Source: Armatimonadota bacterium (GTDB lineage: Bacteria; Armatimonadota; Fimbriimonadia; Fimbriimonadales; ATM1). From it: a stretch of 43,691 nucleotides of DNA. Shown here piece by piece: positions 2,501 through 5,261 of this stretch. The notes under the pieces are model-generated. The model searched no databases and was not told the origin of the DNA. It saw nothing but the letters and a program-made list of their open reading frames with translations. The position numbers and the translations under genes are program-made. The stretch covers positions 1 through 43,691 of the forward strand of contig QEUM01000017.1 in NCBI GenBank assembly GCA_003577165.1, read 5' to 3'. Each line of letters begins with the position of its first letter. Within the stretch, counting starts at the first letter, position 1.

Positions 2501-3175
2501 ATGTTCCTACGGTGCGCTCTCGGGCTCACCTTACTGGGCCCTACACTTGCGTGTTCGCAATCCCTGCACCACTACGTTCGCGTTCTGCATGGCTCGGGAT
2601 GGATCGGTGAGTTTCAGTATGGCTACTACGATTTGGGAACGTACTACGGCTACGCCTACCTGTCAGGATCAATTCTGGACTATCAGGGGACGGTGCTCGG
2701 CCGCGTCGAAACCGAAGTCGTTCCCGAACGCCCAACGCCCGGTCATTTCGTGCTCGACGTCACGTCGACAGCAAGCACTTTTCAAACGCCCCAACCAATG
2801 ATCTCCTATGTCCTGACACAAACCTCTGCCGTTCTCACGCTCGTGCAGCCGATGGTCGTGGACCTCGAGGCGACGTACCAAGGGACTTCAGCAGGAGAGC
2901 GCAGGATGGACGGCGGAGAGCTGTCCCTCCGCAGAGGATCGCAGTTCGAGTTCCGGTTCGAGAACTCCAGCGGCTCATTCCATGGAGTCCTGGAACCCGG
3001 CGACTACGACCTTGAAATTTGGGCGCGCGTGCGAGGGAACCTGCCGCAACAGAGCCTTGCACACGCGACGTATCACGTCGATCTCACCTTTACACCGGTT
3101 CCCGAACCTTCCACGCTGGCAGTTGGCGTCGGCTTGGCAGGACTCGCGTTGCGTCGTTACCGACGACGGTCGTAA
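2501..3175 (+). CDS. PEP-CTERM sorting domain protein
   Basis: A 224-residue exported protein. It has an N-terminal signal peptide (MFLRCALGLTLLGPTLACS). The C-terminus carries VPEPSTLAVGVGLAGLALR followed by RYRRRS: a Pro-Glu-Pro motif, one hydrophobic segment and an Arg tail, the canonical PEP-CTERM anchor recognised by exosortase. The middle (about 20-195) is Tyr-rich at first and then beta-rich, with no domain I recognise. Such proteins are exported and processed by an exosortase, which is not in this window. The gene converges on a second PEP-CTERM gene (minus strand, ending at 4010). The first REP palindrome begins only 4 nt after this stop codon. Confidence 0.85.
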   Translation: MFLRCALGLTLLGPTLACSQSLHHYVRVLHGSGWIGEFQYGYYDLGTYYGYAYLSGSILDYQGTVLGRVETEVVPERPTPGHFVLDVTSTASTFQTPQPMISYVLTQTSAVLTLVQPMVVDLEATYQGTSAGERRMDGGELSLRRGSQFEFRFENSSGSFHGVLEPGDYDLEIWARVRGNLPQQSLAHATYHVDLTFTPVPEPSTLAVGVGLAGLALRRYRRRS

Positions 3176-3179
3176 CGCC

Positions 3180-3365
3180 GGGTGCCACGGGTAAGCGAAG
3201 CGCGCCCGTGCAGTCATTAGAATCAAGAAATCGGGTGCCACGGGTAAGCGAAGCGCGCCCGTGCAGTCATTAGAATCGTCGGGTGCCACGGGCACACGAA
3301 GCGCGCCCGTGCAGTCATTAGAATCACGAAATCGGGTGCCACGGGTAAGCGAAGCGCGCCCGTGC
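3180..3365 (+). repeat. REP palindrome array 1, four copies
   Basis: Four 32-bp copies at 3180-3211, 3233-3264, 3281-3312 and 3334-3365, all in the same orientation. Each has arms CACGGG and CCCGTG around a 13-nt loop; an outer G-C pair can form if one C is bulged. In copies 1, 2 and 4 the loop holds GCGAAGC, a heptamer known to form a very stable DNA mini-hairpin. Copy 3 has CACA in place of TAAG and loses it. Spacers are 21, 16 and 21 nt and all begin AGTCATTAGAATC, so the whole unit (palindrome plus spacer) was amplified. The array lies between the stop of the plus-strand PEP-CTERM gene and the stop of the RAYT gene. It may also act as a transcript end or stabiliser. Confidence 0.93.
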
Positions 3366-3374
3366 CCTAACATC

Positions 3375-3929
3375 CTACAAAGGCACGGGAACTGGATCGC
3401 ACTCGAAAACCACATCGGCCATGCCTGCATAGAACCTCGCGCTCGACCACGGCCAATCCAACATGTCTCCAGCGAGGCCGCGTCGCAGCGGGTTCTCGTG
3501 GATGTAGGCCAGAGAGGCTCGGATCGCCTGAGGGGTGTAGAGGTTCCTGTCGTACCCCCCTCCGGATTGCCAGAACCTGCGATGTGTCCCGTCTCTCTCT
3601 CGAACGAGCAGTTGACGATACAACAGTGGATCGTTCTTCTCGATGCGACGAAGTTCGGAGCGAGCGACGTCGGTCTTAATGGCAGACAGGATGTCGGCGA
3701 TGGCGTATGTTGCCTGGTGCGGATGAATCAGAAGGTGCACGTGTTCCGGCATCAGCACATACGCCCAAACAGAGAAGTCGCACTCTCGTCGGGCATGATC
3801 GAGCACTTCGAGAAATTTGAACCGCGCCGGGTCGCCGTTCAGAAGAGGAAGCCGCCGATAACAGGAGAACGTAAGTTCGTGCGCATGGCCTGGATCGTTG
3901 TAGGCTTTCCGCTTCTTTCTCGGCTGCAT
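3375..3929 (-). CDS. REP-associated tyrosine transposase (RAYT), Y1/HUH family
   Basis: A 184-residue single-domain HUH nuclease. The metal-binding HUH motif is in YVLMPEHVHLLIHP (H63 and H65). The catalytic tyrosine is Y142 in LAYIHENPLRRGL, aligned with the DYIYINP tyrosine of the E. coli RAYT (TnpA-REP). The N-terminus HELTFSCYRRLPLL and the segment RFWQSGGGYDRNL are also typical, and WPWSSARFY follows the tyrosine helix. The family cuts and joins single-stranded REP hairpins. Length is full for the family and both catalytic elements are intact, so it is probably active. The start has AGAGGG about 5 nt upstream of the ATG. REP palindromes lie 9 nt beyond the stop (four copies) and 45 nt upstream of the start (one inverted copy). 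Confidence 0.93.
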   Translation of the reverse strand: MQPRKKRKAYNDPGHAHELTFSCYRRLPLLNGDPARFKFLEVLDHARRECDFSVWAYVLMPEHVHLLIHPHQATYAIADILSAIKTDVARSELRRIEKNDPLLYRQLLVRERDGTHRRFWQSGGGYDRNLYTPQAIRASLAYIHENPLRRGLAGDMLDWPWSSARFYAGMADVVFECDPVPVPL

Positions 3930-3974
3930 CGTCCCTCTGTTCTCGCGTCTGCTGGCTCAACCCTAAGCAGACCG

Positions 3975-4006
3975 GCACGGGCGCGCTTCGCTTACCCGTG
4001 GCACCC
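3975..4006 (-). repeat. Single REP palindrome, inverted relative to array 1
   Basis: One full 32-bp copy on the minus strand, matching the array 1 consensus with GCGAAGC in the loop. It lies between the stop of the minus-strand PEP-CTERM gene (3 nt away) and the RAYT start. Transcription of the RAYT from upstream would place this hairpin in its 5' leader. Confidence 0.93.
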
Positions 4007-4009
4007 GAC

Positions 4010-4771
4010 TCAGCCTCCACTCACGGCACGGCCCCCCCGCCGCCGCAGGGAAACGAGGACAGCAAGACCAGATGTCAGGCCGATCAAGGTCGCGGGTTCC
4101 GGCACGTAACTGATCTGAAGGCCGTTCACCATGCTGCCTCTTCCTGCCGGATCAGCTCGGAAGTCTATGACCAGTTCGCCGTTCGTCACGGTCGCATGAT
4201 GAATGCTGTGTGTGACGAGGTAGGCAAAGTCGTTTCCTGGCATTGGCCCTATGACACGCTGAGGATTCTCTTCCGGGGGGGCACCCTGGACGGAGATAAG
4301 CGTCGGCGCCTGCCATTCCCAGTCCGGGAACACGGAGTACGTGGTGACTGTGTACTGGCCCGCGAGGAGACCGGTAAACGTCAGCAGACCGACCGGGTTT
4401 GTGCCCTCGCCGTCGTTGAGGAGTTTGGCGTAATCGCCCGTGTTGCCCGGGAAGTTCCAAGATCCGCGAGTACGCTGGAGACTGCTCGTGATCAGCAAAA
4501 CGTCAGTCTCACGTCCCAGGATGTCTCGCAGGTTCCATGAGTACGGTGACCAAACGGGGTTCCAGTATCCCGGCTGACCGGCTGCCGCTCCGAACGCCGC
4601 GCTGGGCGCACCGCCGCCCAGTTCAGGAGGGGCGCCCGGAGAGTCGAAGTCGATATTGAAAGACTGGGCGAAGGCGGCCGGCCCGGCCAGGCAGAGGCAC
4701 GTAACGACACATGCCGGCCAGGCAGCCCTCGCCGCTCTCCTGCGGTGTCGAATCCGAGTCATCTCTTTCAT
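4010..4771 (-). CDS. PEP-CTERM sorting domain protein
   Basis: A 253-residue exported protein. The N-terminus has a long Arg-rich n-region (MKEMTRIRHRRRAARAAWP) before a hydrophobic core and an AFAQS cleavage site. The C-terminus reads YVPEPATLIGLTSGLAVL followed by SLRRRGGR, a PEP-CTERM anchor for exosortase processing. The mature part is beta-rich, with Gly/Pro-rich stretches and a segment around FTGLLAGQYTVTTYSVFPD. I do not recognise the domain. The start is ATG at 4771, with a GGAGGAGG stretch about 11 nt upstream; a second in-frame ATG follows three codons later. It converges on the other PEP-CTERM gene across the REP-RAYT cassette. Confidence 0.82.
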   Translation of the reverse strand: MKEMTRIRHRRRAARAAWPACVVTCLCLAGPAAFAQSFNIDFDSPGAPPELGGGAPSAAFGAAAGQPGYWNPVWSPYSWNLRDILGRETDVLLITSSLQRTRGSWNFPGNTGDYAKLLNDGEGTNPVGLLTFTGLLAGQYTVTTYSVFPDWEWQAPTLISVQGAPPEENPQRVIGPMPGNDFAYLVTHSIHHATVTNGELVIDFRADPAGRGSMVNGLQISYVPEPATLIGLTSGLAVLVSLRRRGGRAVSGG

Positions 4772-4985: not shown

Positions 4986-5261
4986 GGGTGCCACGGGTAA
5001 GCGAAGCGCGCCCGTGCCATCCCCCCGTGTGCCACGGGTAAGCGAAGCGCGCCCGTGCCACCCCCCGTGTGCCACGGGTAAGCGAAGCGCGCCCGTGCCA
5101 TCCCCCCGTGTGCCACGGGTAAGCGAAGCGCGCCCGTGCCATCCCCCCGGGTGCCACGGGTAAGCGAAGCGCGCCCGTGCCACCCCCCGTGTGCCACGGG
5201 TCAGCGAAGCGCGCCCGTGCCATCCCCCCGTGTGCCACGGGTAAGCGAAGCGCGCCCGTGC
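4986..5261 (+). repeat. REP palindrome array 2, seven copies
   Basis: Seven 32-bp copies start at 4986, 5027, 5067, 5108, 5149, 5189 and 5230, giving a period of 40-41 bp. They share the array 1 consensus except that most begin GTGT instead of GGGT; copy 6 has TCAG for TAAG. The spacers are CATCCCCCC or CACCCCCC, wholly different from the spacers of array 1. All copies point the same way. This looks like recent local tandem amplification of one REP unit. No cas genes are present and the spacers are not diverse, so it is not CRISPR. Confidence 0.93.

Follow-up and report, generated by a model that had tools for sequence, protein, structure and literature searches.

REP palindromes belong to the most frequent repeats of bacterial genomes. 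The way in which they spread, and the choice of the cutting site by the RAYT enzymes, are still open questions in the field. A threonine near the N-terminus and the NP[LV][RK]xG motif have been named as RAYT-only features by Nunvar et al. (PMC2817692). Published REPs carry a GT[AG]G head (PMC2817692, PMC6006769), and the genome-wide RNAMotif search performed in PMC6006769 demanded GTAG or GTGG, so that GTGC families would have escaped it; the word GTGC is absent from that paper. According to biochemical analyses, no alteration of GTAG is accepted by the E. coli RAYT, and the S. maltophilia enzyme no longer cleaved when the head was GTAC (PMC8266576). Changing guide bases in vitro redirected one enzyme out of three (GTGG to CC; GTAC to GT or GA), and attempts with the two others were unsuccessful (Corneloup et al., PMC8266576). 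Head-to-tail REP neighbours have been reported as absent or rare.

The window analysed here is a 43,691-nt stretch of DNA, which represents the entire contig C20 of an Armatimonadota genome (G000; 2.75 Mb, 23 contigs). Armatimonadota have received little study so far. The window contains a cassette which is very probably a REPtron, i.e., a RAYT gene together with its cognate REP palindromes.

Organization of the locus

The interval 3180-4006 is filled by an uninterrupted RAYT gene, with four REP palindromes in direct orientation on one side and an inverted REP on the other (Table 1). The original prediction, made from the sequence alone, had described exactly this layout, with H63, H65 and Y142 as the catalytic residues, and all these elements were found in place. 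The distances to the stop codons of the two convergent neighbours were reproduced as well: the stop codon of gene 1 (3173-3175) lies 4 nt before the first REP base (3180), and that of gene 2 (4010-4012) lies 3 nt past the last one (4006). The PEP-CTERM tails ascribed to both neighbours are in line with their profile scores. Matches to the 31-mer GGTGCCACGGGTAAGCGAAGCGCGCCCGTGC start at 3181, 3234, 3282 (three mismatches) and 3335 on the plus strand, and at 3975 on the minus strand. The inverted REP and REP copy 4 form a perfect inverted repeat (35/35 nt), 607 nt apart. The second, seven-copy array, 1 kb from the cassette, was absent from the original prediction.

Table 1. Features of the RAYT-REP locus (window coordinates) and of related elements on other contigs (C) of the same genome, G000.
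Feature	Position	Strand	Evidence or remarks
PEP-CTERM protein gene 1, left convergent neighbour	2501..3175	+	Pfam PF07589, 23.0 bits (cut-off 20.7)
REP copy 1, head GTGC	3180..3211	+	Sequence match, genome search
REP copy 2, head GTGC	3233..3264	+	Sequence match, genome search
REP copy 3, head GTGC, 3 mismatches in upper stem	3281..3312	+	Sequence match
REP copy 4, head GTGC, closest to RAYT stop codon	3334..3365	+	Sequence match
RAYT, 184 aa, HUH H63/H65, Tyr142, WQ 120-121, NPLRRG 146-151	3375..3929	-	NF047646, Pfam Y1_Tnp, fold match 4er8
Inverted REP, upstream of RAYT start, head outward	3975..4006	-	Pairs with REP copy 4 in a perfect inverted repeat
PEP-CTERM protein gene 2, convergent neighbour on the right	4010..4771	-	TIGR02595, 22.7 bits (cut-off 16)
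Second array, cassette REP in seven direct copies, period 40-41 bp	4986..5261	+	
Dispersed ~350-bp repeat, adjoining the array of seven REPs, duplicated 53-bp palindromic segment	5263..5590	+	17 genomic matches
~350-bp repeat, other copies	C22:456726-457024, C22:423623-423931, C22:120423-120716, C14:44259-44574		
~350-bp repeat, further copies	C10:738-1047, C16:42020-42192, C18:335690-335875		
Second intact RAYT	C14:51805-52350 (L063:11806-12351)		GTGG-headed long-loop REPs, about 5 copies
RAYT C-terminal remnant	C3:5445-5534 (L073)		

The RAYT protein

The RAYT reading frame has no internal stop. Its product scores 80.5 bits with the NCBIfam RAYT model NF047646 (cut-off 80) and 30.6 with Pfam Y1_Tnp (PF01797, cut-off 23), and remains far under the cut-off of the IS200 model (22.6 for 55). 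An alignment of five proteins from three phyla, including Acidobacteria and Bacteroidota relatives, shows no variation at H63, H65 and Y142. The RAYT-only marks were found too, namely T20, within HELT at 17-20, and the NP[LV][RK]xG motif, read here as NPLRRG, beside the tyrosine. The W of the WQ motif is universal in the RAYTs of the class wherever this region is complete. The predicted structure, a model of modest confidence (pLDDT 72, alignment of five rows), has as its best Foldseek match the structure of the E. coli RAYT in complex with a REP hairpin (4er8; E 1.3e-8, TM 0.63/0.70), followed by the ISDra2 and IS608 transposases. A plasmid search for RAYT relatives retrieved only two distant Bernardetia transposases. 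Several RAYT genes of relatives from the class (L083, L091, L096, L082, L081) show one in-frame stop in the matched stretch, which indicates that decayed copies are common.

A genome-specific REP family

Genome-wide, 38 REP copies were detected with at most three mismatches, for none with the reversed control pattern. A looser degenerate pattern gave 39 copies, and a script allowing up to seven mismatches gave 47 within the fetched stretches around repeats. The same REP, sought in 112 other genomes of the class, was found in none of them. No copy lies inside a called gene, as judged from gene calls based on a home-made codon score. The repeat family expected from the original prediction is thus real, with many intergenic copies rather than copies at this locus only, but closeness to stop codons does not extend to it, since the distances to gene ends elsewhere range from 0 to several hundred bp. 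REPs usually exceed 100 copies, and the copy number is thus modest here for a RAYT-REP system.

The stem, CACGGGT..GCG/CGC..GCCCGTG, shows 94.6% paired cells and eight two-sided changes in a 30-copy alignment, including GGG/CCC to GGC/GCC, and its covariation exceeds that of all 500 shuffles and all slid controls. In DNA folding, the strand with the head at its 5' foot reaches -9.3 kcal/mol, versus -6.8 for its complement.

The genome encodes two intact RAYTs, with one C-terminal remnant on C3. The window RAYT is present once, and the second RAYT, on C14, is 54% identical to it. This C14 RAYT is flanked by GTGG-headed palindromes with another stem (TCGGGTGGCACGGATGAGCG...), present in about five genomic copies. 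Since the second RAYT has palindromes of its own, the REP family of the window is assigned to the window RAYT. Neither of the outcomes that would have contradicted the original prediction, REP copies at this place only or another RAYT matching the palindromes better, was observed. Three C14 REPs (L063:14567, 16180 and 12535) are hybrids, with a GTGG head on a window-type stem. Each hybrid is embedded in a longer repeat (D1/D2); beyond the 3' side of the C14 RAYT, this repeat is found again and again in the gaps separating small genes.

The identity of the gene, its intact catalytic residues, the inverted heads-out flanks, the genome-specific family of about 40 REPs and the compensated stem all speak for a REPtron.

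The fourth guide base

The head of the window REP is GTGC, in place of the canonical GT[AG]G at the hairpin foot, a deviation on which the original prediction was silent. RAYTs were detected in 30 of the 113 genomes of the class (E <= 1e-15), and in 27 of 31 class RAYT loci examined the REP heads face outward, the 5' REP being forward and the 3' REP inverted. Automatic extraction of the REP ends across the class yielded 30 GTGC and 36 GTGG heads, and the head base agrees, with few exceptions, between the two ends of a locus. When the head is mapped as a label on the RAYT tree, eight changes are needed, at least four of which are forced by well-supported branches.

One tentative idea, which we consider possible without favouring it, is that the fourth guide base is an evolutionary switch between GTGG and GTGC, retuned in each RAYT lineage, which would shift the cleavage dinucleotide and separate REP families within a cell. 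We infer this meaning of the guide base from the redirection results of Corneloup et al., according to which GTGC would predict cleavage at GC or GA. The guide-predicted dinucleotides were searched in the flanks (GA/GC for GTGC, CA/CC for GTGG) and none was significant, the best p value being 0.05 over 48 offsets; the link between head and cleavage is thus a prediction only. Both aspects also weigh against the REPtron reading itself: the head is GTGC, although the E. coli and S. maltophilia enzymes do not accept the changes mentioned above, and altering the fourth base would be expected to move cleavage to another dinucleotide, although no shift is detectable in the flanks. The modest copy number weighs in the same direction. 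The class offers a direct test, with about 30 natural RAYTs whose REPs vary at a single guide base, and with both bases in one genome.

A protein residue setting G or C in the head was also sought. Arg4 was the best candidate (p=0.0009, uncorrected over about 190 columns) and was not accepted. Of note, an Acidobacteria RAYT (Terriglobia, L102:3700-4650) has GTAG-headed flanking hairpins (GTAGCTCACCCC...GGGGTGAG), a canonical head unlike those of this class.

Head-to-tail arrays and the ~350-bp repeat

Neighbouring REPs less than 120 bp apart in this genome all share the same orientation (28 of 28 pairs, none opposite), with array periods mostly of 39-43 or 53 bp (near 41 or 53). Near RAYTs across the class, direct pairs also outnumber inverted ones (29 versus 15), nine of the 29 coming from this genome. 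A CRISPR array was considered and rejected, since the spacers are the same short linkers, such as CATCCCCCCG, and are not unique.

Of the 17 genomic matches of the dispersed ~350-bp repeat, eight have a REP, always at the same edge. Within the repeat, a TTGAC...TATA-like stretch precedes the 53-bp palindromic segment GAACCTGCACGCTTTCCCACACGCGGAGCGTGCACCGTGCACCCGTGCAACC, which is often present twice. Its appearance suggests a promoter joined to a small-RNA-like unit, or a second non-autonomous element. REPs might have spread mostly passively, riding on this composite repeat and expanding by recombination or slippage, with little current part for the RAYT. The shared edge of these eight REP sites is consistent with such a history, and so are the head-to-tail arrangement and mostly fixed periods, as slippage or unequal crossing-over would give. 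However, the composite repeat is missing at about half of the REP sites, copies lacking a REP exist (on C4, C6 and C12, and at 134 kb on C14), and the REP family occurs only where the window RAYT is. A mainly passive spread is thus conceivable but rather unlikely.

The fit between the two stop codons

The original prediction explained the exact fit either by insertion next to stop codons or by selection of the hairpins as shared transcript ends. Neither explanation is sustained, given the variable distances elsewhere, the distribution of REP-bearing gaps (5 convergent, 9 tandem and 2 divergent, for 4, 30 and 16 among the other gaps) and the lack of a T-run terminator: no hairpin followed by a T-run was found, and no Rfam match either.

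If the hairpins were kept by selection as shared 3' ends, as RNA stabilisers or terminators of the convergent PEP-CTERM genes, the RAYT would be incidental. REPs do abut both stop codons, and convergent gaps are in excess among the REP-bearing ones (5/16 versus 4/50), but this excess is weak (p=0.03, uncorrected) and relies on home-made gene calls, and most of the 16 REP gaps are not convergent (9 tandem, 2 divergent). Five REPs also follow the PEP-CTERM paralogue C16:61893-62558, whereas the seven-REP array does not stand at the end of PEP-CTERM gene 2 but precedes this gene by about 200 bp. The region folds as RNA far below its shuffles (z -6.2), but the repeats account for most of this fold. 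As the close fit on both sides occurs only once and a T-run is lacking, this function appears improbable.

The history of the insertion was approached by an empty-site search in 10 relatives, using the PALP and acyl-CoA transferase neighbours, in which the junction was not conserved and no empty site was found, and by a search for the PEP-CTERM genes in 60 relatives, in which gene 1 had no homologue. Consequently, no empty-site comparison is possible, and insertion beside a stop codon looks the same as later trimming. The homologues of gene 2 stop soon past the basic cluster and gene 2 extends about eight residues more; the arrival of the cassette may have altered the tail of gene 2. Paralogues of gene 2 in the same genome, at C16:61893-62558 (L065) and C10:4-351, adjoin REP arrays (C16:62888-63058 and C10:630-669, respectively). 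The tight fit most likely reflects a lack of other dispensable DNA at this place, not stop-codon targeting.

Active insertion sequences usually occur as several near-identical copies. That the whole cassette is one transposon, inserted between two genes, is accordingly quite doubtful: the inverted REP ends do bracket the gene, G050 has two equal-score RAYT copies 1.8 kb apart and G025 and G027 contain near-identical RAYTs, but the window RAYT has one copy in its own genome, its closest companion being the divergent C14 enzyme, and REPtrons do not appear to travel as a unit (PMC6006769).

A possible activity cycle

For the preferred REPtron reading, a working scheme can be proposed by analogy with the E. 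coli and Stenotrophomonas RAYTs, on which the binding, cutting and rejoining steps are modelled. The RAYT would bind the REP strand with GTGC at the hairpin foot when this strand is exposed in single-stranded form, as may occur behind a replication fork. A short site close to the hairpin would then be cut by Tyr142, and the cut end would be rejoined elsewhere, so that REP units would be copied or moved. Insertions would settle mostly in intergenic gaps, where they are tolerated, and repeated joining or unequal recombination would yield the head-to-tail arrays. REP cleavage by the window RAYT, as well as its mobility, is likewise presumed from other RAYTs.

Comparison with known systems

The TIRYTs of Acidobacteria are another case, beyond Proteobacteria, of RAYT-like proteins associated with inverted repeats of non-GTAG type; their ends have been termed unrelated to REPs (PMC3733652), whereas the window ends are head-plus-hairpin REPs repeated genome-wide. 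The IS200/IS605 elements (IS608, ISDra2) share the fold, the catalytic residues, hairpins near the ends and a guide tetranucleotide at the hairpin foot. They differ by their asymmetric ends, which are inverted here, and the single copy of the window RAYT and its low IS200 score further set it apart. BIMEs and REPINs (PMC3733652, PMC3116915) are likewise intergenic REP clusters with short conserved spacers, but they are made of inverted REP pairs, unlike the uniformly direct pairs of the window family.

At the level of the palindrome, the E. coli REP shares with the window REP an AA stem interruption at head-numbered positions 12-13, after T11, and this A12A13 bulge is needed for activity in E. 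coli (PMC8266576). The printed core of the Citrobacter koseri REP, TAAGCGAAGCGC (PMC2817692), equals that of the window REP. A horizontal origin from enterobacteria was considered and rejected, the REP having no match in E. coli genomes and the nearest RAYT relatives being found within the same class. Because these relatives lie within the class, the shared TAAGCGAAGCGC core and T11/A12/A13 are read as constraint or convergence.

The closest systems are the RAYT/TnpA-REP REPtrons (Nunvar 2010, PMC2817692; Quentin 2018, PMC6006769; Corneloup 2021, PMC8266576), with the same Y1/HUH enzyme and RAYT-only motifs, inverted heads-out REPs on both sides and an extragenic, genome-specific REP family. 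The differences lie in the head, GT[AG]G in known REPtrons and GTGC here, and in Tyr131, which aligns with R104, the GTAG-contact residue of E. coli, in a column varying across the class. The motif set of the window RAYT (EHVH/WQ/YIHENP) fits no listed RAYT subclass. Neither Armatimonad nor Fimbriimonas appears as a word in PMC6006769, and Armatimonad is also absent from PMC3733652. The cassette is thus a REPtron like those already described, apart from its altered guide base and its head-to-tail arrays, and it comes from a lineage that the papers found do not cover.
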